Below, piece by piece: positions 5,096 to 61,992 of a stretch of DNA of 64,000 nucleotides. Both the position numbers and the translations under genes were made by a program. Source of the stretch: an uncultured Bacteroidales bacterium. Lineage in GTDB: Bacteria > Bacteroidota > Bacteroidia > Bacteroidales > Paludibacteraceae. Under the pieces are notes generated by a model. It had not been told where the DNA came from and did no database searches. It worked only from the letters and a program-made list of their open reading frames with translations. The stretch's first letter is position 1, and each line of letters starts with the position of its first letter. The stretch covers positions 1 through 64,000 of the forward strand of contig ONQO01000003.1 in NCBI GenBank assembly GCA_900319995.1. The letters are read 5' to 3'.

Positions 5096-5737
5096 TCATC
5101 GTTTTTCCGCTCCAATAGTCGTTATTTCTCCGTGTCCCGGATAAACGCGTGTATCGGGCGGAAGGGCGAAAAGAGTTTCCAACGACTCTATCAGTTGACC
5201 TATATTTCCTTCCGGCAAATCGGTTCTGCCATATCCCATTCGGAAGAGTGTATCTCCGGAAAAAAGCACTTTGTCTTGTGGGAAATACAGACTCACGCCG
5301 CCGGGAGTATGACCGGGAGTCTCAATAATGGAGAATTGAGAATGGAGAGTTGAGAATTGAGAATGGAGAATTGAGAATGGAGAATGGAGCGGTTCTATGG
5401 GAAATGATTCCGCTTGCATCCGGACGCCGAATAGGTCATATTGCTGCTGCATGAGATGCACCATAGGGATGTCCCGCTCATGGATAAGCACGGGCGTATG
5501 CCATGTTTCCGTTGCCCATTTGGCGCCCCATAGATGATCCAAATGACCGTGGGTAGCTATAATGGATACAGGGTTTGGGCAGACTGTCTGTTGATTTTCC
5601 ACATACTGAAACAATTGCTGCTGCTCGTAAGGAGTATAACACGCAGGATCGACTACAAGCACCTTCTGTTCGTTTATGGTTATGACATATGTGTTGGTCT
5701 GAAAAGGACCAAACACAAAACTCTTTATCTCCAACAT
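5096..5737 (-). CDS. Metallo-beta-lactamase-fold hydrolase, glyoxalase II-like
   Basis: 213 residues from the ATG at 5737, which overlaps the end of the upstream radical SAM gene (translational coupling). The zinc-binding motif ATHGHLDHLWG, the later GHTPGG and SGDTLF, and the terminal YPGHGE mark the glyoxalase II/MBL fold that hydrolyses thioesters. Between QAESFPIEPL and IIETPGHTPGG lies an insert (ILHSQF-type repeats) encoded by about nine copies of the heptamer GAGAATT/GAGAATG/GAGAGTT (5328-5389). Homologues normally have a short loop here. Heptamer gain or loss would shift the frame. It is the last gene of the marC-rpiB-radical SAM operon. Confidence 0.85.
   Translation of the reverse strand: MLEIKSFVFGPFQTNTYVITINEQKVLVVDPACYTPYEQQQLFQYVENQQTVCPNPVSIIATHGHLDHLWGAKWATETWHTPVLIHERDIPMVHLMQQQYDLFGVRMQAESFPIEPLHSPFSILHSQFSTLHSQFSIIETPGHTPGGVSLYFPQDKVLFSGDTLFRMGYGRTDLPEGNIGQLIESLETLFALPPDTRVYPGHGEITTIGAEKR
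5328..5389. repeat. Heptanucleotide array inside the MBL hydrolase gene
   Basis: Nine consecutive 7-bp units of the forms GAGAATT, GAGAATG and GAGAGTT, read in frame as (F/S)-S-I/T-L-H-S-Q. The unit length is not a multiple of three. Confidence 0.85.
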
Positions 5738-10005: not shown

Positions 10006-12267
10006 CTATTTGTCTTTAGGAACGAGCGGTTGGGAATACGGGAGGATGGCGAAGCGGAAGTCGGCGGAGTCGGTGGCAAACCAGACGCGGCTGGAAAGGC
10101 CGTCGTGAGACTCATGCCAGTAGCCCAGATCGTCGTCCGTGAGGGTGAAAGTCACCTCGCGCGTCTCGCCGGCAGGGATGAAAATCTTCTGGAAACCCTT
10201 CAGTTCGCAAAGCGGGCGAACCAAGTCTCCGGAGAGCTGGCGGACATAGAGTTGCGGAGTCTCGTAAGCATCATAGGAGCCGGTATTCGTAATGTACGAT
10301 TTGACGATGTACAATGTACTATTTGTCGATGCTTCGTCATTGATGATGGTGTCCACGACCGTTTCTCCGTACTCGAAGGTAGTATAGCTCAGTCCGAAAC
10401 CGAAGGGGAAGAGCGGTTCGGTGGGAGTCTCGAGCCAATAGGAAGATTGGCCGATGGAGAACTGCGGACAGCCGATAGGAATGGAGTCAATGAGCATCGG
10501 CGGGTCATACGACGGACGGCCGGTGTTATGGCGGTTATAATAGAGCGGAATCTGACCAACCATCTTCGGGAAAGTAATCGGCGTTTTGCCGGAAGGCACT
10601 ACTTTGCCTGTCAGGATGTTATACAACGCAGGACCCGCCATCGTGCCGCCATGAAAGGCGTAAAGGACTGCAGCGGCTTGATCAACCTGACGACCGATGG
10701 TCAGCGGACGACCAGCCATCACAATCATGACAACGGGTTTGCCGGTAGCCACAAGTGCGTCCATCATTTCTATCTGCGCACCCGGCAAATCGAGGTTCGC
10801 ACGGCAACGCGCTTCGCCGGAGAGGATGGCTTCTTCGCCGCAGAAATAAAGGATGACGTCGGCTTTTTTCGCTGCCGCAACGGCTTTCGCTATGCCGGCA
10901 GGGTTCTTATCACGAGAGTACGTGAGGCCGGGCTCGTAGATCAATTTACCATTTGGACATATACCATTTACCATTTGCTCAAAGGCCATAAGGGGCGTGA
11001 TACTCAAAGAGGTATCGCCGTCAAAGACCCAAGTGCCGAGTTGCTCTTTTTTCTGATCAGCCAAAGGACCCGTAATAAGAATTTGCGCGTTGTGATTTAG
11101 CGGCAGGATGCCGTTGTTCTTGAGCAGGACGGCGGATTCCTCGGCTACGCGGAGAGCGAGTTCGGTATCTCCAGGAGCCGGTGTATCTTCCGGCACATAG
11201 GGGTTTTCGAACAAGCCCAGACGGTATTTGAGACGGAGGATTGAGCGGACACATTCATCAATCTGCGACTCCTTCACTTTGCCTTCCGCTACCAGTTCCG
11301 CCAGATAATCGTTATAGATATTTCCCTGCATATCCATCTCCATGCGGGCATTGATGCAACGCAGCGCCGCGTCTTTCTTATCTGCACAGAGGCCATGCGG
11401 CACAAGGTCTGAACCCGAACCCCAGTCGCTGACGAGGAGCGCATCGGAGTGCCACTCGTCACGGAGGATATCTACATTCAGATGATGATTCGCAGACGAA
11501 GGAAGTCCGTTAAGATCGTTAAACGAGCACATCAGACTCATCGCACCGGCTTCTACTGCAGCTTTGAACGGCGGCAGGTAGATATCGCGGAGTTGGGTTT
11601 CGGGAATCCAAGTGGTGTTATAATCGCGTCCGCCTTCCGAAGCCGAATAGCCGGCAAAATGCTTGACGCAGGCAGCCATTCCAGGTACCATTTGGTCATT
11701 TACCATTTGGTCATTTTGGTATCCACGGACGGTAGCGGCGCCCATGACGGAGGTGAGATACGGATCTTCGCCATAGCCCTCTGCCACACGTCCCCAACGG
11801 GGATCATGCGCCACATCCACCATAGGCGAGAACGCCCAACGGATACCATACTGGTATGCCTCATTCGCAGTAGCTTGCGCCGCTTGCTCAATCAGTTCGG
11901 GATTGAATGTAGCGCCCTGTCCCAGTGGAATGGGATAGATGGTCTTGAAGCCGTGAATGACGTCACGCGCAGCCACCAAAGGAATGCCGAGACGGGTCTC
12001 CTCCACCGCCATCCGTTGCAAGCAGTTCACCTCTTTCGCACCGACGATATTGAAGATCGAACCCACTTTGCCTTCGCGGATAAGCGCCTCTTTCTCTTCG
12101 GCGTTCCACGAGGGGTCGAGTTGGTTCATCTGTCCGATCTTCTCCTCCAGCGTCATGCGGGAGAGGAGGTCATCGATAAAACGGTCTTCTTCACTCTTGT
12201 GGGAGCACGCACAGACGGCCATCAATAGTATAGACAGCACCGTTGCGCGAAATGTATATCTGGCCAT
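10006..12267 (-). CDS. GH3 beta-glucosidase lipoprotein
   Basis: A 753-residue BglX-type glycoside hydrolase family 3 enzyme that removes terminal beta-glucose from oligosaccharides, probably in the periplasm. A lipoprotein signal (ATVLSILLMAVCAC) is followed by the TIM-barrel (RMTLEEKIGQM..., VDVAHDPRWGRVAEGYGEDP, CVKHFAGY) with nucleophile D281 in LLVSDWGS. The alpha/beta sandwich and a C-terminal FnIII-like domain (about 640-745) follow. Two copies of NDQMV (residues 185-194), encoded by a 15-bp DNA repeat (11686-11715), are inserted before PGMAACVKHFAGY. A degenerate relative lies at 10945-10976. The first 77 nt overlap the 3' end of the GH81 gene in another frame. Last gene of the PUL. 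Confidence 0.93.
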   Translation of the reverse strand: MARYTFRATVLSILLMAVCACSHKSEEDRFIDDLLSRMTLEEKIGQMNQLDPSWNAEEKEALIREGKVGSIFNIVGAKEVNCLQRMAVEETRLGIPLVAARDVIHGFKTIYPIPLGQGATFNPELIEQAAQATANEAYQYGIRWAFSPMVDVAHDPRWGRVAEGYGEDPYLTSVMGAATVRGYQNDQMVNDQMVPGMAACVKHFAGYSASEGGRDYNTTWIPETQLRDIYLPPFKAAVEAGAMSLMCSFNDLNGLPSSANHHLNVDILRDEWHSDALLVSDWGSGSDLVPHGLCADKKDAALRCINARMEMDMQGNIYNDYLAELVAEGKVKESQIDECVRSILRLKYRLGLFENPYVPEDTPAPGDTELALRVAEESAVLLKNNGILPLNHNAQILITGPLADQKKEQLGTWVFDGDTSLSITPLMAFEQMVNGICPNGKLIYEPGLTYSRDKNPAGIAKAVAAAKKADVILYFCGEEAILSGEARCRANLDLPGAQIEMMDALVATGKPVVMIVMAGRPLTIGRQVDQAAAVLYAFHGGTMAGPALYNILTGKVVPSGKTPITFPKMVGQIPLYYNRHNTGRPSYDPPMLIDSIPIGCPQFSIGQSSYWLETPTEPLFPFGFGLSYTTFEYGETVVDTIINDEASTNSTLYIVKSYITNTGSYDAYETPQLYVRQLSGDLVRPLCELKGFQKIFIPAGETREVTFTLTDDDLGYWHESHDGLSSRVWFATDSADFRFAILPYSQPLVPKDK
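11686..11715. repeat. 15-bp unit, two tandem copies inside the GH3 gene
   Basis: TACCATTTGGTCATT occurs twice (11686-11700, 11701-11715), translated on the minus strand as NDQMV-NDQMV. The same unit lies in the GH81 and aroC genes. Confidence 0.92.
12191..12267 (-). other. 77-nt dual-coding overlap GH81 tail / GH3 signal peptide
   Basis: In one frame the DNA encodes the last 24 residues of GH81 (ending in the tail motif and LCVLPQE). In the next frame it encodes the GH3 lipoprotein signal peptide and its lipobox. Both readings match expected motifs. Confidence 0.85.
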
Positions 12268-15200
12268 TCTTTATAAATTTGAAATTTGAAATTTGAAATT
12301 TGAAATTTGCTTCTTCGATAGCGGTTATAATCGGGTCGCAGAGGCCTTCTCCATAGACCTCCAACTCCCACAGGGACGCGCCGTAGCCGGTGTTGCGGGT
12401 CTTGCAGAAGATGCGCACAAACTGTGCCTCCACGGGTTCGTTATTGATACGTATATCGTGGGTCTGCGTGCCGCCTTTAGCATCGGAAACGGATTTGACG
12501 GTCGTATAGTTCTCGCCATCGGAGCTGACCTGGATATCGAACGAAGTAGCATAAGCGTTCTCCCAGATGAGGCGCACCTGGGTCAGACGGTAACAATCCT
12601 CCAGATCGACCGCTATCCACTCGTTATCCTGGAAGCGGCTGGACCAGCGTGTTTTCATATCGCCATCCACGGCTTTTGGCGCTGCCGTTCCATCTCCTTC
12701 GGCTCCGGAAGCCTTTGCGGGTTTATGGAGCGCGAGGTTCACTTCCTCAAACGGCAGGACGTGAACGATCGCCGTGTCGGTTCTCTCAAAGCACGGGAAG
12801 ACGAGTTCGTGATCACCCACTTGGGTGGCAAGATAAACGGAGCGGCAGGTATCCATGACGTCGCCAAACTGATTGAGGATGGAGACGACAAACGTCTGCT
12901 GCGTACCGATCGGCATGGTCGCTTCGGCAGGTGTCACATCTGCTGTAACTGCCATCTCGGTCTCCATGACGATGATCGTGAGAGATGCCGAACAACCACC
13001 AACCGTGCGGGTCTCCGTGAAGAGACCGTAGTCGGGGTAGGTCTTCTGCTCCGAAGAGGTGGAGATGATTGCTCCGTTGAAGTTATACGCCGTTGTGGTG
13101 AGGGTGGTTGTCTGTCCCTGCTGAAGGACAGTGTCGGACGCAGAGAGTGCTACTGCAAAGACTGTTTCCGGGTCGCCGGTTAGCGGTCGTCCGTATGCCT
13201 CCAGTTCATAGAGCGAAGTGCCATACTGCGTAGCACGCTGGAGTCCAGTTAAGCGGATATATCGAGTCCTGGAGGGGCCTACCTCCTGCCCCTCCATAAA
13301 GGGAAGGGTGACTTTCTCCACTCCGCCGGCAGAGGCGTACGTAGCACGATGCCACGTCGTGCCGTCCGACGAGAGTGCGAGTTCATATTCGGACGCAAAA
13401 GCCGTCTCCCAGCGCAGGATTAGATGATCGATAAAACATACCTTGCCCAGATCCACCATCGCCCATTCGCCATCGTGATGCGTCGATCCCCAGCGGGTGT
13501 TCGTCTTACCGTCCGTGAGGTTTGCCGCCACACAACCGGCGTTCTCAAACGAAGAGACCGTCACGGGTTTATGGAGCGCGAGATTCGGATACGGCAAATC
13601 CCAAGCCATCGGGTCGGGTTCTATCGTCTCTTCTTCATTTTCGATGGTCGTGATTGTGCGGGTCTCTGCGCCGGAGATAAGCGTCAGACCATGCGGCACA
13701 GTGACCGTAGTATCTTTTGCACCGAAGAAATGCACGGATAGCGGCGTTTGAGCCACATTATAAACCGCATATGTCATGCGTCCGCTGAGGGTGTCCGTAT
13801 AAGCGCACGCCATCGGATGCGAAGCAAAGATATCATACCGCTTCTCGCCCAAGCCCTTATGCGAATGCGCGAGCCAATAAGTGATGCCACCCGTGTCGGG
13901 GTTCTTCGCCAGCGCCTTTCCCATCTGATCCATTCTGTCCCACACATGAATCGCCGAATCGGCATCGAAGAGCGAGAGGTACGACAGACACACATTGCCC
14001 AGACCTGACTCATCCCCCAAACCGCCTTGCGGGGCTTCGTAATTGCCGACCTCCTTGGTAGCGTACATCTGTGTGTAGTCCCATTTGGCGAAAGGCAGGT
14101 CTTCGCTGAAACAGTTGGTCAGTATCGGCGAGATAGGCAGCCATTGAATGGAATGCATCCATACCGGGTCGCCGGAGAACCATGTCCACCAGCCCACACC
14201 CTGCATCGTCAGGTTGCAGCAATAGGGGTGGTTATATTTGGTAAAATCAATATTGCGCCTTTTCTTGTCAAACCAATACTCCGATGTAGCACGTGTCTCG
14301 AGGGTATAACCCATGATTCCTGCTTCGAGCATCTTCTGGTCTTGCAGCGCGGCGCCTAAGAGCCACACGCCACCCCAGCCTTGTATCGCTTCCGAAGAGG
14401 ACTCCTGACCGTTTCCGTTACCTGCATTACCTAATCCGCCTGCAAACGAATGTCCGCAATAAGGATTGAACGTACGGAACCACGGTTCGTCCGCCGAGCG
14501 CTGCCAGTTGGCATAATCGCGTGCCACCTCCCGAGCCATCGGACCATATTGAGTCCGGAAATCGTCATCCAGCATGCACAGCAACGCCGAGGCATAGACA
14601 AAATAGCCGTAATGGAAATGGTGGTCATTGAAGGTATCCGAGTCATAGGAGGGATCCATGCCGATGAGCGCGCCCCATTTCGGGTAACGCGCAAAATAGT
14701 ACAGTTCTTCGCCCGGCGTGAAAGTGTACCAATTGACGAGCACTTCTTTCAAACGATTCTTCGCCATACGGAAAGTAGCGGTATCGCCCATCTGCAGCGC
14801 AAAAGTCATATAATGCGCCATCTGCGTCAGCCCCTTTCCGCCCCAATAGGTATCTCCACCGAACGAACCACGCTTGGCATAATCCGCATTGAGCGCTGCC
14901 ATACGAGCTTCGGAGAACTCTTCACCCCACTCCATTGGAGCCGGGAAGAACGGCAGGAACGAATGCACCGGATACGTAAACGTAAAATCGTTTCCCTCGT
15001 ACAGCCTCATCGTGCCACGAGGAGAGAGATAAGTACCATTGACCATTTGGTCATTTACCATTTGGTCATTTGAGTCGTAGTAATGATGCGGCAGGAAGCC
15101 CATGAGGACAGATTTGTCCACATGAAAAGTCGTTGTGAGCGACGAGGTAGCGGCATTATAAGCGTACGAGAAAGTGGTCTTACGCGGGATTTGGAACGCA

Positions 15201-15898
15201 TATGGCGCACATGCCGCTGCGTCTAAACCATCCGTAAGCAAAGCGATTGTGAGTTTATCCGTGTCCGTAAAGACCGCATATCGGGCACTATTGGGATTGG
15301 TAACCTGCATCGTGATTCCGGACGCCTCAAGCCAGACGAGCGGCGAACCTTCCATACATGTCACGCGCACCCAATCCTCGCCGTCCTGCATGATAAACGA
15401 CATCGCGAAATCCGACCAGCTATCGACGAGCGCTTCCTCAAAAGCTGCATTCTTGCCGGTAGCCGTATTGGAGAACGTCACCGAGAGCGGTGTGTCCCAT
15501 TTGACCTCATAGCCCGTGGGCTCCCAATAGGACGGATAACCGATTGTCAGTTCACCGTCTTTTGCCTCTGCCCAACCGGGATAGAACCACAGTTTTCCGG
15601 TCCATGTATTGACGAGTGCGTGCGTCCACCAATCATTCGTCGGCAGCGCCAGAGAGCCCTCTTGCGAACCATCGGGAGTACCCAACCGCGCCAAGAGCGA
15701 GTCCGGCAGATAGAGTCTGCGATGTTCCATCTGGTACGCCTGACAACCGCCGTGAGCCGAAGTGCGACTCTTGGACAGCGGCACATACGAAGCATACGAA
15801 CCCGCGCCAACAGACACAGGCGTTTGCGCGAGAGAGGAGACCGCTATCGCTGAAAGAAGAAAGACCGCTGCGCTCAAAGACAAAAGACTCCGTTTCAT
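12191..15898 (-). CDS. GH81 endo-beta-1,3-glucanase with two CBM32-like domains
   Basis: 1235 residues with a signal peptide (FLLSAIAVSSLA). The GH81 module spans about residues 60-770: LPTNDWWTHAL, FNDHHFHYGY (about 423-432), and the catalytic region GNGQESSSEAIQGWGG with E499 and E503. GH81 cleaves long beta-1,3-glucan chains internally. Two F5/8-type (CBM32-like) modules (about 800-935 and 1070-1200) flank an Ig-like segment. A 15-bp repeat encodes NDQMVNDQMV at residues 277-286. The C-terminus reads NGQIYISRNGAVYTIDGRL, a tail shared with other secreted PUL proteins. It is preceded by a GAAATTT heptamer array and is overprinted by the GH3 signal peptide. Confidence 0.92.
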   Translation of the reverse strand: MKRSLLSLSAAVFLLSAIAVSSLAQTPVSVGAGSYASYVPLSKSRTSAHGGCQAYQMEHRRLYLPDSLLARLGTPDGSQEGSLALPTNDWWTHALVNTWTGKLWFYPGWAEAKDGELTIGYPSYWEPTGYEVKWDTPLSVTFSNTATGKNAAFEEALVDSWSDFAMSFIMQDGEDWVRVTCMEGSPLVWLEASGITMQVTNPNSARYAVFTDTDKLTIALLTDGLDAAACAPYAFQIPRKTTFSYAYNAATSSLTTTFHVDKSVLMGFLPHHYYDSNDQMVNDQMVNGTYLSPRGTMRLYEGNDFTFTYPVHSFLPFFPAPMEWGEEFSEARMAALNADYAKRGSFGGDTYWGGKGLTQMAHYMTFALQMGDTATFRMAKNRLKEVLVNWYTFTPGEELYYFARYPKWGALIGMDPSYDSDTFNDHHFHYGYFVYASALLCMLDDDFRTQYGPMAREVARDYANWQRSADEPWFRTFNPYCGHSFAGGLGNAGNGNGQESSSEAIQGWGGVWLLGAALQDQKMLEAGIMGYTLETRATSEYWFDKKRRNIDFTKYNHPYCCNLTMQGVGWWTWFSGDPVWMHSIQWLPISPILTNCFSEDLPFAKWDYTQMYATKEVGNYEAPQGGLGDESGLGNVCLSYLSLFDADSAIHVWDRMDQMGKALAKNPDTGGITYWLAHSHKGLGEKRYDIFASHPMACAYTDTLSGRMTYAVYNVAQTPLSVHFFGAKDTTVTVPHGLTLISGAETRTITTIENEEETIEPDPMAWDLPYPNLALHKPVTVSSFENAGCVAANLTDGKTNTRWGSTHHDGEWAMVDLGKVCFIDHLILRWETAFASEYELALSSDGTTWHRATYASAGGVEKVTLPFMEGQEVGPSRTRYIRLTGLQRATQYGTSLYELEAYGRPLTGDPETVFAVALSASDTVLQQGQTTTLTTTAYNFNGAIISTSSEQKTYPDYGLFTETRTVGGCSASLTIIVMETEMAVTADVTPAEATMPIGTQQTFVVSILNQFGDVMDTCRSVYLATQVGDHELVFPCFERTDTAIVHVLPFEEVNLALHKPAKASGAEGDGTAAPKAVDGDMKTRWSSRFQDNEWIAVDLEDCYRLTQVRLIWENAYATSFDIQVSSDGENYTTVKSVSDAKGGTQTHDIRINNEPVEAQFVRIFCKTRNTGYGASLWELEVYGEGLCDPIITAIEEANFKFQISNFKFIKNGQIYISRNGAVYTIDGRLCVLPQE
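12275..12308. repeat. GAAATTT heptamer array in the 3' part of the GH81 gene
   Basis: One partial and four full copies of GAAATTT, read on the minus strand as NFKFQISNFKF, directly before the C-terminal tail and 8 nt upstream of the GH3 start codon. Confidence 0.92.
15041..15070. repeat. 15-bp unit, two tandem copies inside the GH81 gene
   Basis: GACCATTTGGTCATT (15041-15055) and TACCATTTGGTCATT (15056-15070), translated as NDQMV-NDQMV on the minus strand, the same as in the GH3 gene. Confidence 0.92.
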
Positions 15899-15901
15899 AC
15901 C

Positions 15902-17527
15902 TTATAGTTTCACCAATATTGTTTCTACACTATTCGCCGGCATCTCTACCGTTGCGCAGTATTCGCCAATCTGCAACGGGAAAGAAGCGGCCTCGCCGGT
16001 ATTGAGGATATTCACCGCTATCTGTCCCTCGGCATTCTTCGTTGCGCAGACAAAGATCTGATCGCTGATTTCTGAAGGCTGACAGCTGATCACCTGATCG
16101 CCCGGTCGCATGGAGCGGCTGAACTGCTTGAGCACAAAGTAATACGGCGTGTAGTAGATATCTTCCTTCTCGTAATCAATCATCACCGGTGCCGCAGCGA
16201 AGTTATTCACATGGTTCGGTCCGCCGATGGAGTCCAGCACGATATTCCAATCGATGAAACCCGTCAGCCAATGATTCATGCCTTCTATTATATAACGCGC
16301 ATAGCGGTGCACACCCGCGTATTTGGGATGTGTGTCACCTGCCCAGCGAGTCGAATACGCCCAATCGGTAGCCACTTTGTTCCACCAAAAAGCATCGTTC
16401 CCGAACCATCCGGACTCTTTGAATCCCTCCGGATCGGTTACACCGTCCCATGGCTCGCAACCCAGGTTATCAATACATCCCTCAGTATGCAGGATTGTTT
16501 TGTCGGGATAAAGCGCATGTACGGAATCCAGCACGTTCGGAAAACAGTCAATCGTCGAACCATACCAGTGTACCGCCATTCCTGTCGTCGCTGCATTGGC
16601 AAGCGAATCACCATAGATAGCTGCTGTGTAAGGACCCATCTCGAAGATATTCTGGTCGAAACCAAGGATCTTCACATCCTGAAAACCGCTTTCGTCCAAA
16701 CGCGGACGCATGTATTGACCGATGAACTCTGCTTCTACTGCCGGCCAGAAATCCATACTCTCCCATCCGCCGTCATTACCCATTGGTTCGTTCACAGGCG
16801 TGAGTGCCCAAATATCTACACCCTCAGCCTTCCATGCCTCTACGTATTTCGCCAGATAGCGCGCATAGGCATCATAGTATTCCGGCAGCAACGCACCGCC
16901 GCGATGAAAACCGTTCTCGCGCTCATAGTATTTCTTATTCTCTTTCATCCACGCCGGCGCCGTCCAGGTGTTCGCCACGATGCGGTATTCCTTATCCGTC
17001 TGATTTTGCTTGATCGCCCAGACATCTTTCATCAGATGGAAAAGGTCGTAGTTGCAGTCCTGAATCTGCGGATACTGCGCTTTGGCAAATCCCTCTTTGT
17101 CGCGGTCCAGCGTAAACGAACGCAACTCTACATCGCCGTCCTCTTCCGCCAGTGAATACTTGCCTTCGACAGAGAAATCCGATGCACCGATCTGCGTGCG
17201 GCTCATGGAGAAGTTGGCTCCATTTTCACCATATAATTCTTCCAACACCGCCTGACGTTTCTCTACAGGCAGACATGCCAACACAAAAGCCGAACTCTCC
17301 GTCAGCGAACCGCCGAAACCGTCAATCGTCTGCCTCGTCTCGGAGGGATTGATTACTACGGCATTCTCCGCCGTGCCTTTCTTAAACACAACGGTCTCTT
17401 TCTCGGCACATCTATCACCAGAGGCCGAAGTGAGCCAGACATGAGATGATGTTACTTTAGCTGTACAAGCTGTCAGAAGACAGACCGCTATCGCTGACAG
17501 AATAAAGATTATTGATTTAATTTTCAT
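15902..17527 (-). CDS. GH30 beta-glucanase/glucosidase lipoprotein
   Basis: 541 residues with a lipobox signal (ILSAIAVCLLTAC). The GH30 fold is recognisable from IDGFGGSLTESSA, MSRTQIGASDFS, NTWTAPAWMK, the acid/base E247 in TPVNEPMGN and the nucleophile E349 in ILHTEGC. A C-terminal beta-domain closes it. GH30 members in beta-glucan loci act on beta-1,6 linkages (subfamily 3) or as beta-glucosidases/glucosylceramidases (subfamily 1). I cannot assign the subfamily, but a role against beta-1,6 side branches of laminarin-type glucan fits the neighbours. It overlaps the upstream phosphorylase gene by 4 nt (ATGA), indicating coupled translation. Confidence 0.9.
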   Translation of the reverse strand: MKIKSIIFILSAIAVCLLTACTAKVTSSHVWLTSASGDRCAEKETVVFKKGTAENAVVINPSETRQTIDGFGGSLTESSAFVLACLPVEKRQAVLEELYGENGANFSMSRTQIGASDFSVEGKYSLAEEDGDVELRSFTLDRDKEGFAKAQYPQIQDCNYDLFHLMKDVWAIKQNQTDKEYRIVANTWTAPAWMKENKKYYERENGFHRGGALLPEYYDAYARYLAKYVEAWKAEGVDIWALTPVNEPMGNDGGWESMDFWPAVEAEFIGQYMRPRLDESGFQDVKILGFDQNIFEMGPYTAAIYGDSLANAATTGMAVHWYGSTIDCFPNVLDSVHALYPDKTILHTEGCIDNLGCEPWDGVTDPEGFKESGWFGNDAFWWNKVATDWAYSTRWAGDTHPKYAGVHRYARYIIEGMNHWLTGFIDWNIVLDSIGGPNHVNNFAAAPVMIDYEKEDIYYTPYYFVLKQFSRSMRPGDQVISCQPSEISDQIFVCATKNAEGQIAVNILNTGEAASFPLQIGEYCATVEMPANSVETILVKL

Positions 17528-20520
17528 ACTTCAACAATGATTTGTTTTAGTTCACCATCTCGTGCAAAGAGGTGGGCACTTTGATCTTTTGTAAGGGTTA
17601 CGGGTGAGGGGTTACGGGTTACGGGAGATTTCTTATATACAATCTCCGTACCGCAATAGGTAAAGCGAAGTTCACCATTGTTGAAATCCGCGTTGCTGAG
17701 CATTGTCGGTGCGAAGGAGATTTGTCCGTTGTGCACAGAGACCCCGAGTTCGAACCAACGTGAGATGACATCTTCTTTCACTTGTCCTGTCATACCGGGT
17801 TGTTGTACACCTGCCATGGTAGGTGTATGTGAATATGGGTCAAAGGGGAAAGCGCCATATTCGTCAGGTAGCTTATGCGAACCTATTCCTTCGCGAATGG
17901 CTCGGTAATGAGATACAAGCCTTCCCCATATCTCTCCCTGAGAGGCAGGATTCTTTACTGCCTCACGCTGAATATTCTCTCCTACCGCCAGCAGTAACTT
18001 GCTCACCATATGCCAGTAGATACATCCGAGGCCTTCGTACTTATAGAACGTGCCGGAACGACCAGTGAATGCGTGATGATGGAAGACCGATTCATATAGG
18101 TCCTTCAGTTCTTCCGGTAAGTTATTGGCATTGCGGTATTGCGCGTCAAAATGAATACCTCCGTCGCAGTCCCGTTTAAGAATAGAACCTAAGTATTTCT
18201 GCACAACAGGCAATTGCTCGGTCTCTTTAGGCAGGTTATTCATCTCCAGGAACGAAGGTCTTCTGCGGTTCGGATATAGCATATACGAACGTTGATCTTC
18301 GCGGTACAAATCAGAATGACGCATCACATCGAGTAAATCAGCAGCCTCTTCTCCGCTTAGGATTCCGGAAGACAGAACCGCTACTTGGCCTTCCAACATC
18401 TGATAGAGATGTGATATCTCAATATCGTCCTCTGCAAAACGAATGAGGTTATACGCTTCATACAGTCCATCTTCCCGTTTATTGGCGCGGATAGAGCTAT
18501 CGACCTTATGCAAAGTTGCGGTACAAAAGTCCTGCAGTTCGCCCCGCTCGAGAGTCTTCGTCTCACCGCTAAGACCGTTATAGACGGCATTACGATACCG
18601 TTCCCCAGCCGTACCGACAATATTAATAAACTGCTTTGCATTTCCGTTCAGATAAGCCGGCCGTATTGCACGTAGGAAGTCCAATGTCTCGGCTCCTACC
18701 TGCACGTCGGTGTCGAAGAGCGACAGCAGAAAAGCGACATATCGCCGCATATAACAGAGTGTCACCATCGAAGCGCCGTATCCCACAAGCGCGTTGTTGG
18801 CATCGTTCCATTCCGGTCTTAGGGTATTCATCCAAATACCAGCATTTGGCACAAAGTTCGACAGTTTGGTAAGGAGCGTTATCAGCAGTTTGTCGGCCAT
18901 GGTGGTACGGCGAATCTGCCCGTTCCCATCCAGCAGTAACTTGGCATCCGCGCCCATCTTCGGAATGAGGGCTTGGATACGCTTATGCTCCTCGTCATCA
19001 AACCGAATACTGTTCTTTGGGTCCGCTACAATCTCCGCATACGACTTGAGCCGATAGGGAACATTCGCAAACGCATAGCGAGGCTCGTTGAGCAAGGCAT
19101 GCAGTTTCTCCGGGTCATGGTTATAACTGATCTCCAGCAGTTTGAGCAGATATATGATCTGATGGTCTCCCCAATAGCCAATATTCGACCACGGGTTTTC
19201 AGGTTCAATCACTTCATAATCAATGCCTTCATTGGATATGCGATAGGGGTTATAACCGTCCGCTGTGGTGGCATTAAGGAACTTGGCAATGATATGGTTG
19301 ATATAGAGCGGATACGAATAAGAAAGAGCTTCCCAGTTTTGGAAGATATCCCGCCAGTTACCTTGATACGCCACGACGGGGTTGCCTTGTTCATCCTGCA
19401 CGCGGATGGAGAAGAGGTTCCACGGACGTGAAGGGTCACCGTGACGACGCCCGAATGTGAGCGGTAAATCTTCCTCGCCGCCTTTTTCGTCCGCCCGTGG
19501 CGGATACGTCAAATAGTACCCTCCGCGCATGGTATTGAACAGGACGTTCGCAAAATGCCGTGCATCGTTCGCTTCGTCGCCGGTGTGTTGTATTCCGTCG
19601 TTCTGAGCCACAATCCGTCTGAGCGCCTCGGTGGAAGCCGCCATCGCCGCCTCTATCTGATCTATCGCATCTGCTCGGGCGATAAAATGCATCAGCTCAT
19701 GGACCGCCACGGCATCTTTCGACACGTCGAGCACGTTGTACCAGGTAAGTGAATCCGTGAATCTGTGAATCTGTGAATGAGCCACGTACGCCCCGCGTAC
19801 TCCTTTGGACGGGGTCTTGTCATAGTCAACACCTGGTAAACCTAGACAATACACGGTATTACATGCTAATGATTCGCTAGGCTCCGCGCGGTCAACCAGA
19901 ATCGCTTCCATGCGGAAAAGCGCCAACGAAGTGCCGGGCACTAATTCCGTCCGTTTATAGCCGTCCACCAAAGTGGAAAACTCGTTCTGTGTCTTGCGCT
20001 CCACGCCGGCGGGCAATACATTGAGCAGTTTGTCCGTCAAATCGATCTCAAGCGCTTCGCCAGAGAGGTTCTCCAGTGTCGCCCGGCGAACCCAGCCGTG
20101 CTTGCCCGCAGGTGCCCATAGATACGAAAAACGCAAGCCTAATGTGTGGTTTTCTTCACAAAAGACAATCTGGTTACCGACGGTGGATTTGGCAATTTTG
20201 CGAGACAGTTCATACACAGGCTGCTGCTTGTCGCTGAACGGCAACCAAAGACACTTGCCGTGATTTTCCGGGCTTTTCACAACCAACTCTGTGTGCGGAC
20301 CGGTGAAAGCGAATCCTTCCGTGATCTTGTCGTCCGTGTAATAGGGGAAAAGCGCTTCTCCGGGACTGCGGCGACCACATGTCAGACCACCCGTGGAAGA
20401 CAAATACATCCACAAATCCGTATCGGACGCCAGCGAGATGAAGAACGGTTGCATCTCGTCATAATTGGCTATCTCGTAAAAACGATCGCCATTAATGGTA
20501 ATAAATTGTCCTTGTACCAT
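17524..20520 (-). CDS. Cytoplasmic beta-glucan phosphorylase, GH94/GH149 type
   Basis: 998 residues without a signal peptide. The clan GH-Q-like organisation is visible: an N-terminal beta-sandwich (SSTGGLTCGRRSPGEALFPYYTDDKI), then an (alpha/alpha)6 barrel with GDPSRPWNLFSIRV, YQGNWRDIFQNWEAL and NIGYWGDHQIIYLLKLLE. The length exceeds typical GH94 cellobiose phosphorylases (~800) and is closer to GH149 beta-1,3-glucan phosphorylases. The product would be glucose-1-phosphate from imported beta-1,3-glucosides. Two repeat-derived segments are in frame: HSQIHRFTDS (DNA about 19754-19785, GTGAATCT units) and SPVTRNPSPVT near the C-terminus (17595-17625, TTACGGG units). It sits next to the sugar transporter. 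Family number and exact chain length preference are inferred. Confidence 0.8.
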   Translation of the reverse strand: MVQGQFITINGDRFYEIANYDEMQPFFISLASDTDLWMYLSSTGGLTCGRRSPGEALFPYYTDDKITEGFAFTGPHTELVVKSPENHGKCLWLPFSDKQQPVYELSRKIAKSTVGNQIVFCEENHTLGLRFSYLWAPAGKHGWVRRATLENLSGEALEIDLTDKLLNVLPAGVERKTQNEFSTLVDGYKRTELVPGTSLALFRMEAILVDRAEPSESLACNTVYCLGLPGVDYDKTPSKGVRGAYVAHSQIHRFTDSLTWYNVLDVSKDAVAVHELMHFIARADAIDQIEAAMAASTEALRRIVAQNDGIQHTGDEANDARHFANVLFNTMRGGYYLTYPPRADEKGGEEDLPLTFGRRHGDPSRPWNLFSIRVQDEQGNPVVAYQGNWRDIFQNWEALSYSYPLYINHIIAKFLNATTADGYNPYRISNEGIDYEVIEPENPWSNIGYWGDHQIIYLLKLLEISYNHDPEKLHALLNEPRYAFANVPYRLKSYAEIVADPKNSIRFDDEEHKRIQALIPKMGADAKLLLDGNGQIRRTTMADKLLITLLTKLSNFVPNAGIWMNTLRPEWNDANNALVGYGASMVTLCYMRRYVAFLLSLFDTDVQVGAETLDFLRAIRPAYLNGNAKQFINIVGTAGERYRNAVYNGLSGETKTLERGELQDFCTATLHKVDSSIRANKREDGLYEAYNLIRFAEDDIEISHLYQMLEGQVAVLSSGILSGEEAADLLDVMRHSDLYREDQRSYMLYPNRRRPSFLEMNNLPKETEQLPVVQKYLGSILKRDCDGGIHFDAQYRNANNLPEELKDLYESVFHHHAFTGRSGTFYKYEGLGCIYWHMVSKLLLAVGENIQREAVKNPASQGEIWGRLVSHYRAIREGIGSHKLPDEYGAFPFDPYSHTPTMAGVQQPGMTGQVKEDVISRWFELGVSVHNGQISFAPTMLSNADFNNGELRFTYCGTEIVYKKSPVTRNPSPVTLTKDQSAHLFARDGELKQIIVEV
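17595..17625. repeat. TTACGGG-type short repeat in the phosphorylase gene
   Basis: GGGTTACGGGTGAGGGGTTACGGGTTACGGG, three copies of GTTACGGG at irregular spacing, read as SPVTRNPSPVT on the minus strand near the C-terminus. Confidence 0.8.
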
Positions 20521-48209: not shown

Positions 48210-48959
48210 ATGAATAAACTACTTGAAATAAAAGACCTTCATGCGTCCATCGGCGGCAAAGAGATTCTCAAAGGCGTCAACCTCGTCATCAACGAAGGCG
48301 AAGTGCACGCTATCATGGGTCCCAACGGCGCCGGCAAGTCAACACTAAGCGCTGTGCTGACAGGTAATCCTGCCTATGAAGTGACGAGCGGAGAAGTTTA
48401 TCTGCGCGGAGAAAACCTGCTGGCTATGGAGCCCGAAGTACGCGCACGCGCAGGCGTGTTCCTTTCTTTTCAATATCCCGTAGAGATACCCGGCGTCAGT
48501 ATGACTAATTTCATGCGCACAGCTCTTAATGAGAAGCGAAAATACGAAGGTAAGACAGAATTATCCGCGCGTGAGTTTCTGGCTTTGATGCGCGAGAAGA
48601 AAAAAATGCTCGAACTGCCCGACAAACTCAATAATCGTTCTGTAAATGAGGGTTTTTCAGGTGGAGAGAAGAAGAAAAACGAGATCTTCCAGATGGCGAT
48701 GTTGGAGCCGTGTCTGGCTATTCTCGATGAGACAGACAGTGGTTTGGATATAGACGCGTTGCGCATCGTGGCAGAAGGTGTAAACCGTTTGAAAAGCCCG
48801 GAGAATGCATCCATCGTCATTACCCACTACCAGCGGTTGCTGGATTATATTGTGCCGGATTTTGTACACGTCCTCGCGGATGGCAAGATCGTCAAAACAG
48901 GCGATAAGAGCTTAGCCCTTGAGCTGGAAGAAAAGGGATATGAAGGAATTGAGAATTGA
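48210..48959 (+). CDS. sufC: Fe-S cluster assembly ATPase SufC
   Basis: 249 residues. ABC ATPase of the SUF system that partners SufB/SufD in building Fe-S clusters. Walker [10 protein letters not shown] (37-45), signature [10 protein letters not shown] (149-158), Walker [13 protein letters not shown] (169-180) and the H-loop [11 protein letters not shown]. The last codons and the stop (EGIEN) are formed by the first units of a GAGAATT heptamer array that runs into sufD. No sufB is visible in the window; it would normally sit directly upstream. Confidence 0.96.
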
Positions 48960-49016
48960 GAATTGAGAATTGAGAATTGAGAATTGAGAGTTGAGAATTG
49001 AGAATTGAGAGTTGAG
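48953..49016. repeat. GAGAATT heptamer array across the sufC/sufD junction
   Basis: About nine consecutive 7-bp units (GAATTGA phase, with GAGAGTT variants) from the sufC stop to the first codons of sufD. The same unit occurs in the MBL gene (5328-5389), and a short version lies before exuT (59090-59112). Confidence 0.92.
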
Positions 49017-49694
49017 ATTTCTATACATAGCGGAGAGGTATTTGAGAAAGTGTTTCTCAATGAGCCGGAAGTAAACTTGCGCATTGTACAAGAAGCGGGT
49101 TCGCATGTGAAGATTCATGTGCTGAACATGCCTTTTGATAAACCGATAGATCAACATACCGATATATCGAAGCTATCGTGCCCGTCAGAGGCAAAGAATA
49201 ATATCGTCATTGAGCAAAAAGGTTCCGGCTGTTCTACCGAGATTTATGCCCTCGCGTTTTTGCATGGCGAAGAATCGGTTACTACGGAGACTCACGTTTT
49301 GCACGCAGTGGGAGGCGGAACATCTAACCAGTTGATTAAGTTTGTGTTAGCAGACAAATCCCGCGGTCGTTTTGTAGGAGATTTGAAGATAGCACAGGAT
49401 GCACAGCAAACCGAGGCACATCAGACGAATCGCAATCTGCTTCTCTCGGAGACCGCGGAAATACGCACACAACCGCAGTTGGAGATCTACGCCGATGACG
49501 TCAAAGCGACCCACGGCGCTTCGACAGGACAACTGGATGAATCGGCGCTTTTCTATATGCAGCAACGCGGTATTGGTAAAGAAAAAGCGCGTCAACTGCT
49601 TGTCGGCGCGTTTATGAAAGATGTCCTCGCAACTATCAGCGATGAGCAATTAAGAGAACAATTACTGAACGCGGTTGATGGCGTAATCGAGTAA
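49005..49694 (+). CDS. sufD: Short SufD-like protein (C-terminal half)
   Basis: 229 residues, against about 430 in typical SufD. The conserved SufB/D beta-helix end is present: GKGSG-like VIEQKGSGCSTEIYALAFLHGEE, QTNRNLLLSETAEIRTQPQLEIYADDVKATHGASTGQLDESALFYMQQRGI with the conserved His (about residue 170) and the RGI helix. The N-terminal half is absent. The frame opens after a stop at 48999-49001. The only nearby starts are TTG (49005, chosen) and GTG (49050), both next to or inside the heptamer array. It may be a naturally minimal SufD or a gene eroded by repeat expansion. Its end overlaps the convergent polyprenyl synthase gene by 33 nt. Confidence 0.75.
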   Translation: MRVEISIHSGEVFEKVFLNEPEVNLRIVQEAGSHVKIHVLNMPFDKPIDQHTDISKLSCPSEAKNNIVIEQKGSGCSTEIYALAFLHGEESVTTETHVLHAVGGGTSNQLIKFVLADKSRGRFVGDLKIAQDAQQTEAHQTNRNLLLSETAEIRTQPQLEIYADDVKATHGASTGQLDESALFYMQQRGIGKEKARQLLVGAFMKDVLATISDEQLREQLLNAVDGVIE

Positions 49695-59085: not shown

Positions 59086-59113
59086 TGTCAATTGAGAATT
59101 GAAAATTGAAAAA

Positions 59114-60670
59114 ATGAAAATTATGAATGACGTTAAAAAAGCTGTCATGACCAATTGGCGTTGGGTCATGTGTGCGATGCTTTTCTTCGCCACTACGGTT
59201 AACTATATGGACCGCCAGGTTCTTAGTTTGACATGGGAAGAGTTCATCAAACCAGAATTTAACTGGACTGACGACAACTACGGAACAATCACCGGCATAT
59301 TCTCCATTGCGTACGCTATTTTCTGCTTGTTTGCAGGTAAGTTCATCGATTGGATGGGGACCAAAAAAGGTTATCTATGGGCAATTATTATATGGTCCAT
59401 TGGTGCCGTTATGCATGCCGGTTGCGGAATTGTTACTACGTGGCTAATACCGGAAATTTCCTCTGTAGATATGCTAAAAGATATGGGGTACCAATGCAAG
59501 GATGCAGCAGATGCCGTATTAGCAAATGGAGGTACAGCGGAGATGGCAGAAGCGGCTAAGATTGCTGTTGCTACCAAATTCGGTGTTGCAGCAGAAATAT
59601 TGGGGACCATTACCACTATCAGTGTATGGCTATTTGTAGCCTGCCGAATGATTTTAGGTCTTGGTGAAGCAGGGAACTTCCCTGCTGCTATCAAAGTGAC
59701 AGCAGAATATTTCCCGAAGAAAGACCGTGCTTTTGCTACCTCTATTTTCAATGCAGGTGCTTCGGTGGGCGCTCTTGCCGCTCCTGCCACCATTCCTTTG
59801 TTAGCAAAAGCCATGGGATGGGAAATGGCATTTATCATCATCGGTGCTCTTGGCTTTATCTGGGCAGGCATCTGGATTTTTGTCTATGACAAACCACAGA
59901 GTTCCAAGCATGTAAATGAAGCCGAGTTAGCATACATTAATTCTGACGAAAAAGAGGCTCCGGAAGCAGAGGAGAAAAAAGAAAAACAGATGTCCTTTAT
60001 GGAGGCTTTCAAGCACCGCCAGACATGGTCCTTTGCATTTGGTAAGTTCATGACTGATGGTGTATGGTGGTTCTTCCTGTTCTGGACGCCAAGCTATTTT
60101 GACAACACTTTCCACATTAAGGCTTCTGATCCTGAGGGAGTTGCATTAATTTTCACGTTATACGCCATCGTTACCGTTATTTCCTTGTTCGGAGGTTACT
60201 TGCCGAAGATCTTCGTAGAGAAGAAAGGCATGGAGCCGTACGCAGGTCGTATGTTGGCGATGTTGATTTTTGCATTCTTCCCTATCTTGGCTCTCTTTGC
60301 GCAACCTCTTGGAAACGCATATGGTCCTTGGATTGTAGCTATTATCATCGGTATTGTTGGAGCAGCTCACCAAAGTTGGAGCGCCAATATCTTCTCCACT
60401 GTAGGTGATATGTTCCCGAAATCCGCAATCGCGACTATCACAGGTATAGGTGCGATGGCAGGTGGTATCGGTTCTTTCCTCATTAACAAAGGTTCGGGTA
60501 TGCTATTTACGCACGCAGAAAAAGCCGGAGAGGCTTTCCAATTTGCTGGCTTCAGCGGTAAGCCCGCGGGTTACATGATTATCTTCTGCGTTTGCGCCGT
60601 GGCTTATCTGATTGGCTGGAGTGTAATGAAGACGCTGGTTCCGAAACACAAACCGGTTGTTGTTAAATAA
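59114..60670 (+). CDS. exuT: Hexuronate transporter, MFS (ExuT-like)
   Basis: 518 residues from the ATG at 59114; the ATG at 59123 is equally possible, and a short GAGAATT/GAAAATT repeat lies just upstream. 12 membrane helices of the anion:cation symporter family: FFATTVNYMDRQVLSLTWEEFIKPEFNWTDDNYGTITGIFSIAYAIFCLFAGKFIDWMGTKKGY is the typical ExuT/GudP start, followed by RMILGLGEAGNFPAAIKVTAEYFPKKDRAFATSIFNAGASVG. A ~70-residue insert with Ala-rich helix after helix 3-4 (SVDMLKDMGYQCKDAADAVLANGG) is longer than in proteobacterial ExuT. Imports glucuronate/galacturonate for UxaC-KdgK-Eda. Confidence 0.92.
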   Translation: MKIMNDVKKAVMTNWRWVMCAMLFFATTVNYMDRQVLSLTWEEFIKPEFNWTDDNYGTITGIFSIAYAIFCLFAGKFIDWMGTKKGYLWAIIIWSIGAVMHAGCGIVTTWLIPEISSVDMLKDMGYQCKDAADAVLANGGTAEMAEAAKIAVATKFGVAAEILGTITTISVWLFVACRMILGLGEAGNFPAAIKVTAEYFPKKDRAFATSIFNAGASVGALAAPATIPLLAKAMGWEMAFIIIGALGFIWAGIWIFVYDKPQSSKHVNEAELAYINSDEKEAPEAEEKKEKQMSFMEAFKHRQTWSFAFGKFMTDGVWWFFLFWTPSYFDNTFHIKASDPEGVALIFTLYAIVTVISLFGGYLPKIFVEKKGMEPYAGRMLAMLIFAFFPILALFAQPLGNAYGPWIVAIIIGIVGAAHQSWSANIFSTVGDMFPKSAIATITGIGAMAGGIGSFLINKGSGMLFTHAEKAGEAFQFAGFSGKPAGYMIIFCVCAVAYLIGWSVMKTLVPKHKPVVVK

Positions 60671-60990: not shown

Positions 60991-61992
60991 TTACAAAAAT
61001 TGTACCAAAGCGAGGGCTGTCATAGCCTCAACGACAGGAACAGCGCGAACAGCGACACAGGCATCAGAACGATTTACCATTTTGACATTTACCCTTTGGT
61101 CATTTAGTTTTTTCAGCGCTTTGGGGGTTGTGGGTGTGGGTTTGAAGACACATCGGAAGACTATTTCGGAGCCATCAGAGATACCTCCTGCGATGCCGCC
61201 GGAGATGTGGTTGATAACCGACCCGGGTTCTGTGACACCTTCAAAACCGGTGCCGTACGCAAAACCTTTGCAGGCGTTGATACTCATGACAGCGAAAGCC
61301 AGTTGTGCTTGTAGTTTATCAAAAATGGGTCCTCCTGTTCCGACAGGCAGGCCATCTATCCGACATTCCACGATGCCGCCTATCGAATCACCGTCCTTTT
61401 GATAAGCCGCAATCGTCTCTGCGAACAGAGCAGGATCTTTTTCTGCTCCTACCTGAACGAGTTCCGCATGAATAGTAATGCCTTTTTCCTCTAATTGCTG
61501 CTTGGCTAAACAACCAGCCACTACCCTTCCTGCCGTTTCCCGTGCGGACGCTCTGCCGCCTCCACGCCAATCGCGGATTCCGTATTTTTGCTCATAAACC
61601 TTGTCCGCATGACCGACACGATACGTATGCTTCAACCACTCGTAATCCTCCGGCCGCGCATCTTTGTTACGAATAAGAAAAGCGATCGGGGTTCCAAGGG
61701 TAACTAACCCCTTTGTCCGTTGGTCTTTTGTCACTTCGTCACTTTCTATGACTCCGCTCAGCCATTCCACCTCATCGGGTTCGCGCAACGCCCTTGGCGA
61801 AACACCTGTCTCCCTTCCTTTTAGGGATGGATCGAGGTTGGGCTTCCTGCCTGCACGCTTTTCCAACTCTTCTCGAATCATATCAAGACTGATATGCAAA
61901 CCGGCAGGCACTCCGTCAAGCACGCCTCCAACTGCCGCTCCATGCGACTCACCGAAGCTTGTAAAAGTCCATTTTTCTCCAAAACTGTTCAT
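60991..61992 (-). CDS. aroC: Chorismate synthase, with repeat-derived segments
   Basis: 333 residues; usual length about 355-360. Last step of the shikimate pathway: EPSP to chorismate, using reduced FMN. Signatures FGESHGAAVGGVLDGVPAGL, RVGHADKVYEQKYGIRDWRGGGRASARETAGRV and MSINACKGFAYGTGF are intact. Unusual features: an extra ~8-residue stretch before EPDEVEWLSGV, another (ESDEVTKDQRTKGLVT) before LGTPIAFLI, and near the C-terminus NDQRVNVKMVNRSDAC in place of the usual segment ending GRHDPC. The last is encoded by the 15-bp repeat (61075-61104). The protein ends soon after AVPVVEAM. Divergent promoter shared with the PCMD gene. Confidence 0.9.
   Translation of the reverse strand: MNSFGEKWTFTSFGESHGAAVGGVLDGVPAGLHISLDMIREELEKRAGRKPNLDPSLKGRETGVSPRALREPDEVEWLSGVIESDEVTKDQRTKGLVTLGTPIAFLIRNKDARPEDYEWLKHTYRVGHADKVYEQKYGIRDWRGGGRASARETAGRVVAGCLAKQQLEEKGITIHAELVQVGAEKDPALFAETIAAYQKDGDSIGGIVECRIDGLPVGTGGPIFDKLQAQLAFAVMSINACKGFAYGTGFEGVTEPGSVINHISGGIAGGISDGSEIVFRCVFKPTPTTPKALKKLNDQRVNVKMVNRSDACVAVRAVPVVEAMTALALVQFL
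61075..61104. repeat. 15-bp unit, two copies inside aroC
   Basis: TACCATTTTGACATT (61075-61089) and TACCCTTTGGTCATT (61090-61104), the same family as in GH3 and GH81, read as NDQRV-NVKMV. Confidence 0.85.

Follow-up and report, generated by a model that had tools for sequence, protein, structure and literature searches.

The window analysed here, a stretch of 64,000 nucleotides from an uncultured Bacteroidales bacterium of the Paludibacteraceae, carries on its minus strand a beta-glucan utilisation row composed of GH149, GH30, GH81 and GH3. The features considered in this work are the following:

17524..20520, minus strand: GH149 beta-1,3-glucan phosphorylase, in the same gene row
15902..17527, minus strand: GH30 gene, upstream of GH81 in the same gene row
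12191..15898, minus strand: GH81 gene (ORF of 1235 aa), the upstream partner of GH3
12317..12325, minus strand: T-A-I of GH81 (residues 1192-1194), resembling the Prevotella intermedia CTD cleavage motif PT/GI
12275..12309, minus strand: heptamer array AAATTTG x5, coding for a flexible linker of low pLDDT ahead of the GH81 tail
12194..12280, minus strand: GH81 tail KFIKNGQIYISRNGAVYTIDGRLCVLPQE, likely a short T9SS C-terminal signal (52.7 bits with a profile that includes the GH81 tail itself; predicted small beta-sheet)
12191..12267, minus strand: double-coding stretch of 77 nt (frame 0, GH81 C-terminus; +1 frame, GH3 N-terminus)
12205..12267, minus strand: predicted GH3 lipoprotein signal peptide up to the lipobox Cys, MARYTFRATVLSILLMAVCAC, assigned by pattern
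10006..12267, minus strand: GH3 beta-glucosidase-like gene (ORF of 753 aa), the downstream partner, starting inside GH81

The GH81 protein is made up of a signal peptide, the GH81 domain, two F5/8 type C stretches and a C-terminal tail, with Pfam matches to Glyco_hydro81C (1e-41) and to the two F5/8 type C stretches; the GH3 protein matches GH3 N (1.8e-65). The first-pass annotation had proposed that the final 77 nt of GH81 also code for the N-terminus of GH3, and this is confirmed: over 12191-12267, frame 0 ends as ...KFIKNGQIYISRNGAVYTIDGRLCVLPQE followed by the stop codon, and the +1 frame starts as MARYTFRATVLSILLMAVCAC followed by SHK. Its description of this second frame as a lipoprotein signal with a lipobox agrees with the pattern, and the signal is treated here as predicted.

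A 15-bp tandem repeat (NDQMVNDQMV in the protein) is found within both GH3 (11686-11716) and GH81 (15037-15071), and similar repeats occur at 10944-10989 and 61072-61106, as if a small repeat were spreading through coding and non-coding DNA.

Overlap of GH81 and GH3 across the genus

The search for GH81 covered 178 genomes of the same genus, that of the window included, and 46 of them contain GH81 at E<=1e-80. The same-register +1 overlap between GH3 and the tail is present in 21 of these 46 genomes, including the window, as well as in three genomes without a full GH81. Its length is 71-80 nt in all 21 loci. The GH3 start coincides with the xATG of the tail in 20 of the 21 loci, and the lipobox pattern, by which the charged start, the hydrophobic core and the lipobox Cys were checked, is passed by 19 of them, given that L044 has a Phe at the position of the lipobox Cys and L051 has an atypical lipobox. 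These loci are related and do not count as independent trials, with GH81 at least 86% identical in ten of them, the window included. This conservation is new with respect to the observation made in the first-pass annotation. In L034 the NG of the tail has changed to EG, and an ATG one codon upstream replaces the start and is a possible start of GH3.

The remaining readable loci are of three kinds. In two genomes (G089, where the start and the stop share ATGA, and G124), GH3 is adjacent to GH81 and has its own signal peptide. In four loci (L048, L050, L055 and L056) the tail is present and GH3 is not downstream; their genomes (G165, G108, G073 and G075) are outside the 68 that have a GH3 match at E<=1e-150. 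For the 17 other GH81 loci, no GH3 was found within the approximately 1.5 to 3.5 kb read behind GH81, and a few of these genomes have a GH3 elsewhere.

The genomes are multi-contig drafts, the named ones mostly metagenome-assembled, and a sequencing or assembly frameshift could for this reason be suspected. The probability of such an artefact is negligible, given that 21 genomes, belonging to different species, show the same overlap, as do 12 of the 14 named public loci that were fetched (partly the same genomes as the 21). The named loci stem from metagenome assemblies of the rumen and of other gut material that carry the label Bacteroidales or Paludibacteraceae. The sequencing error that the first-pass annotation had named as a possible refutation is itself refuted by this conservation.

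The entries of GH3 in the database offer a different reading of the same DNA, namely that GH3 truly starts at the internal Met of MAVCACS and that the +1 reading upstream of it is accidental. Among the best 120 database relatives, 54 begin at or near this Met, at most a few residues from the lipobox Cys, and 20 more start at the hydrophobic core, so that 74 start inside the signal peptide; of the others, the whole overprint signal is present in 4 and a separate signal in 32, and 10 form a last class, mostly starting behind the signal. Nonetheless, a start at MAVCAC leaves the signal peptide without its charged and hydrophobic portions, whereas related GH3 proteins with separate starts have full lipoprotein-type signals, and synonymous recodings fall far short of the +1 reading, which is itself conserved (see below). 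Moreover, the part of the Prodigal paper relied on here gives a maximum same-strand overlap of 60 bp, a value that is surpassed by all 21 overlaps. The internal start is therefore regarded as very unlikely, and we infer that a limit of the Prodigal type caused the truncations of GH3 in the database. With GH3 starting at the xATG of the tail, this would be a systematic annotation error, by which 74 of the best 120 relatives of a predicted lipoprotein beta-glucan enzyme are listed with an incomplete signal peptide, and the truncated entries would misplace the enzyme in models of gut glucan use.

The C-terminal tail and the heptamer array

As had been noticed from the sequence of the window, the tail is common to other proteins, being found in four other ORFs of the window (23001, 32911, 36777 and 41695). 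A tail profile of 12 rows and 25 columns, which includes the window's own tails, matched the own genome at 68 places at E<=0.001 and at 103 places at E<=1, where five of the 68 are the tails of the window that are in the profile. For the 30 best tail matches, an [A/G]-[I/V/M] motif was seen by eye ahead of the tail in 20 of the 30 linkers. By a loose pattern, the tail ends 113 of the best 120 GH81 homologues (of 1225 database matches). Seven were missed by the pattern: the ends of P0093 and P0102 are tail-like by eye, the proteins P0074 and P0118 end within the domain, P0087 and P0100 lose the frame in the middle of the protein, and P0112 alone looks like a possible out-of-frame tail. The frame break of P0100 lies near a heptamer-like stretch (TTFNFQLSTFNFRL), and repeats may also break GH81 away from the tail.

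The genome contains PorU (1012 bits, over the cut-off), and the classical T9SS tail TIGR04183 is matched at 13 other places of the genome at E<=0.001. GH81 itself gave no NCBIfam family at E<=1 and so no TIGR04183 tail, for which reason its export by the T9SS is given here as a prediction. The AlphaFold2 model, obtained with an alignment of 31 loci, has a folded F5/8 domain, a flexible linker with pLDDT of 55-65 and a tail that forms a small beta-sheet, with blocks of 75-85. The GH81 tail is likely a short signal of the T9SS type, with predicted export and cleavage. The tail type, with 68 places in one genome, is then a candidate short T9SS signal outside Prevotella.

Tail matches of the own genome with an open frame shorter than 110 residues were also considered; five were read (L187-L191), the other two lying on C59 and C116. 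L189, L190 and L191 are ends that lie beside a contig edge. L187 and L188, which are tails without an adjoining coding frame and may be debris, give no evidence of a switch; L187 (C78:26580-26645) is possibly a remnant of a lost cargo gene.

Directly ahead of the overlap, the heptamers noticed in the first-pass annotation form a perfect AAATTTG array of 5.0 copies at 12275-12309, 7 nt before the GH3 ATG. It had been proposed that slippage in this array toggles GH81 between tailed and untailed forms with GH3 remaining constant, and GH81 does leave the tail frame when a single 7-bp unit is removed or added in silico: with one unit lost GH81 ends at a TAA just before the GH3 ATG, and with one gained it has a non-tail end. 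In addition, the GH81 linkers are periodic at p<=0.02 in 12 of 34 cases (lag 7 in nine, lag 8 in two and lag 6 in one), against none of the 34 control stretches taken 150 nt upstream. The comparison with relatives speaks against slippage. All 44 readable GH81 C-termini of the genus (the 46 minus L081, which is at a contig end, and L086, which is uncertain) have the tail in frame by eye, and L004 and L006, two species with GH81 86% identical, share the same AAATTTC array with the same copy number. The units of the array differ by species, as though arrays had expanded and degenerated and had always returned to the frame. The heptamer switch is thus possible but unsupported, and we consider it unlikely.

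Periodic linkers are also found in the own genome, in 7 of the 30 best tail matches, five of them with period 7. Since several of the units resemble, by eye, copies of the first codons of the tail, AAATTT, the arrays may grow from there. Other heptamer arrays occur in the window (GAATTGA x10.3 at 48946-49017, AATGGAG x9 at 5327-5389 and AATTGAA x4.6 at 59090-59122), some of them at gene boundaries.

Constraint on the two reading frames

The dependence of each frame on the other was evaluated by synonymous recoding. In test A the tail protein was kept fixed and synonymous codons were redrawn from the GH81 gene of each locus. The fraction of recodings giving an open +1 frame with at least the observed hydrophobicity is not above 0.0046 for 20 of the 21 loci and is 0.022 for L057. 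The probability of obtaining the ATG by recoding alone is approximately one half, so the ATG by itself says little for each locus. In test B the signal peptide was kept fixed, codons were redrawn, and frame 0 was scored against a profile of 12 non-overlap tails: the observed tails score 17-36 bits, compared with means of -21 to -1 for the recoded ones, and the fraction of recodings reaching the observed score is not above 0.002 in all 21 loci.

The combination of an ATG, an open frame and a hydrophobic core occurs in 20 of the 21 overlap loci, compared with one of 13 non-overlap GH81 tails (L056, with no GH3 behind it), and it is absent from all 29 of the other tails that score best in the own genome. 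The third position of tail codons 14-22 is a T in 143 of 189 cases for the overlap loci versus 63 of 261 in the control. Substitutions counted on the GH3 tree by tail codon position are 47/41/56 over 18 overlap codons, and in single-coding sequence they are 38/21/126 for GH81 and 18/13/97 for GH3, over 24 codons each. In the four genomes where GH3 is missing, the tail is kept in all four and the +1 ATG is absent in three; the +1 frame is still hydrophobic in two (L050 and L056).

These data support the view that both readings are conserved beyond what either alone would force. Of the proposal that one DNA stretch fixes two targeting-type signals with a heptamer switch ahead of them, the first part stands on this ground and the switching of GH81 finds no support.

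It could be argued that the tail is a passenger, unneeded by GH81 and conserved only because selection acts on the signal peptide of GH3. In the overlap species the stop has moved, adding a few extra residues to the tail (CVLPQE), and between L004 and L006 three changes in the overlap alter the tail and leave, by eye, an identical signal peptide. Against this, the frame-0 score is rarely reached with the signal peptide fixed, such tails end nearly all of the best GH81 homologues as described above, the four genomes without GH3 retain the tail, and G104, which has lost most of GH81, retains an open frame of signal peptide plus tail (see below). A tail without function for GH81 is for these reasons quite unlikely.

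Natural deletions and the probable origin of the signal peptide

Several genomes have lost one of the partners. Compared with its relative G153 (L041), G104 shows a first match of 528 nt (97%) that extends to the GH81 signal peptide and a second of 213 nt (98%) from the GH81 end, with 3.4 kb missing between the two. What remains (L094) is an open frame of 104 residues, from stop to stop, in which only a few residues separate the GH81 signal peptide from the tail, while the signal peptide of GH3 is undamaged. It is possible that the 104-residue frame is a protein or that it is debris. In G127 the DNA matches the window up to the start of GH81 and resumes from the tail onward. This deletion joins MKRSLLSL, which is the start of GH81 in the window, to LLSILLMTVCAC, so that the GH3 signal reads MKRSLLSL and then RAALLSILLMTVCAC, and the other frame contains a fossil tail, AVYTIDDRLCVLPQE. 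The matches overlap by 11 and 12 nt at the deletion joints (11 nt for G104), as in deletions between short repeats. No second GH81 was found in G104 or G127 in the search of same-genus genomes at E<=1e-80.

In five other genomes without GH81 (G177, G016, G162, G012 and G112), GH3 is directly behind a GH30-like end. The upstream partner can also be exchanged: in G003 the tail that overlaps GH3 belongs to a GH16 protein, and G200, whose upstream end is identical to that of G003 over the stretch read, also has the tail on a gene other than GH81. GH3 signals that stand on their own resemble the overprint signal peptides more than shuffled sequences do (p<=0.004) in G127, G177, G016, G162, G012, G170 and G141. 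The resemblance is borderline in G031 (0.011) and absent, by the same comparison, in G161, G027, G006, G112, G089, G147, G013 and the four outgroups tested. Some of the ingroup GH3 signals therefore seem to have been freed from the overlap, and others seem to be replacements or original signals.

In the GH3 tree, with 56 rows, a branch (100/100) sets the 14 outgroup rows apart, and each of them, G124 and G130 included, has a separate signal. G013, the first ingroup branch, has its own signal. Within the ingroup, overlap and own-signal GH3 alternate, with G031 beside G079 (100/100) and G161 beside G182 (88/93), and for this reason room must be left for separate signals gained later, or for an overlap that was gained more than once. 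Counts of changes on the tree cannot separate gain from loss, hence the direction is one that we infer: the identical register argues for one gain of the overlap followed by several later replacements. The tail is probably older than the signal peptide, because it ends most of the best GH81 homologues by the loose pattern and recurs throughout the genome, and because the GH3 proteins of the 14 outgroup rows have separate signal peptides.

A likely origin would be that GH3 became joined to the tail through a deletion or a fusion. The conserved [N/D/H]-G of the tail, written xAT-Gxx, would have given the ATG, and the tail codons that end in T would have given the hydrophobic core, because a T in the third place is the second base of the codon in the next frame, which then codes mostly for L, I, V, F or M. 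From such an arrangement GH81 would probably be exported and anchored by the T9SS, for which PorU is present, and GH3 would be translated from the internal start in the same message and probably lipidated. In genomes that lost GH81, the tail DNA or the signal peptide persists in several cases, and the tail persists in the four without GH3.

In 21 species of the genus, GH81 thus ends and GH3 begins in a single stretch that is open in two frames, with a likely T9SS tail in frame 0 and a predicted lipoprotein signal in the +1 frame, and it is probable that this signal peptide was born by overprinting the tail. A wider reading, which we consider reasonably probable, is that a single cassette provides one protein with its export signal and the following one with its lipoprotein signal, is kept in many species of the genus with a changeable upstream partner (GH81 or GH16), holds the partners together given that neither is cleanly deletable, and has been hidden from gene callers by the length of the overlap. 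If true, any gene behind such a tail could gain a signal peptide likewise, since the N-G or D-G that such tails conserve may read as ATG one frame further on. It would also be a clean, genus-wide case of a signal peptide arising from coding DNA of another frame, where natural losses of the partners separate the two constraints.

Same-strand overlaps of bacterial genes are mostly short. The arrangement of GH81 and GH3 is like such overlaps in that a 3'/5' stretch is shared in different frames within an operon-like row, and unlike the usual ones in that it spans 71-80 nt, above the Prodigal limit, is conserved, and has a targeting-type signal in each frame.

According to the portion of PMC11969387 used here, Prevotella intermedia has short T9SS domains with the cleavage motif PT/GI and a predicted three-stranded sheet. 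The GH81 tail is similar in length, with 44 residues from Thr1192 to the end compared with approximately 40-55 from the cleavage motif to the end in P. intermedia, in the predicted small beta-sheet that is not a full sandwich, and in the presence of PorU in the genome. Unlike those CTDs, as they appear in that portion, it is set beside them by length, fold and T-A-I and not by motifs B, D and E, and its cleavage is a prediction. Phase-variable heptamer loci such as HMW1A, as presented in the section of PMC8262952 drawn on here, also have a tandem repeat, with a copy number that can alter expression or the reading frame; here, on the contrary, all 44 readable loci keep the tail in frame and no variation is seen.

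No report of a bacterial signal peptide overprinted on the secretion tail of another protein was found among the titles and abstract starts of open-access PMC articles. A comparison can be made with the overprinted orphan genes of Escherichia coli, which in the part of PMC4683798 considered here are likewise a new second-frame reading of an older coding sequence. The present case differs from these in that the second frame gave rise to no new gene but to a signal peptide for one that already existed, and in that many species of a genus have conserved it.
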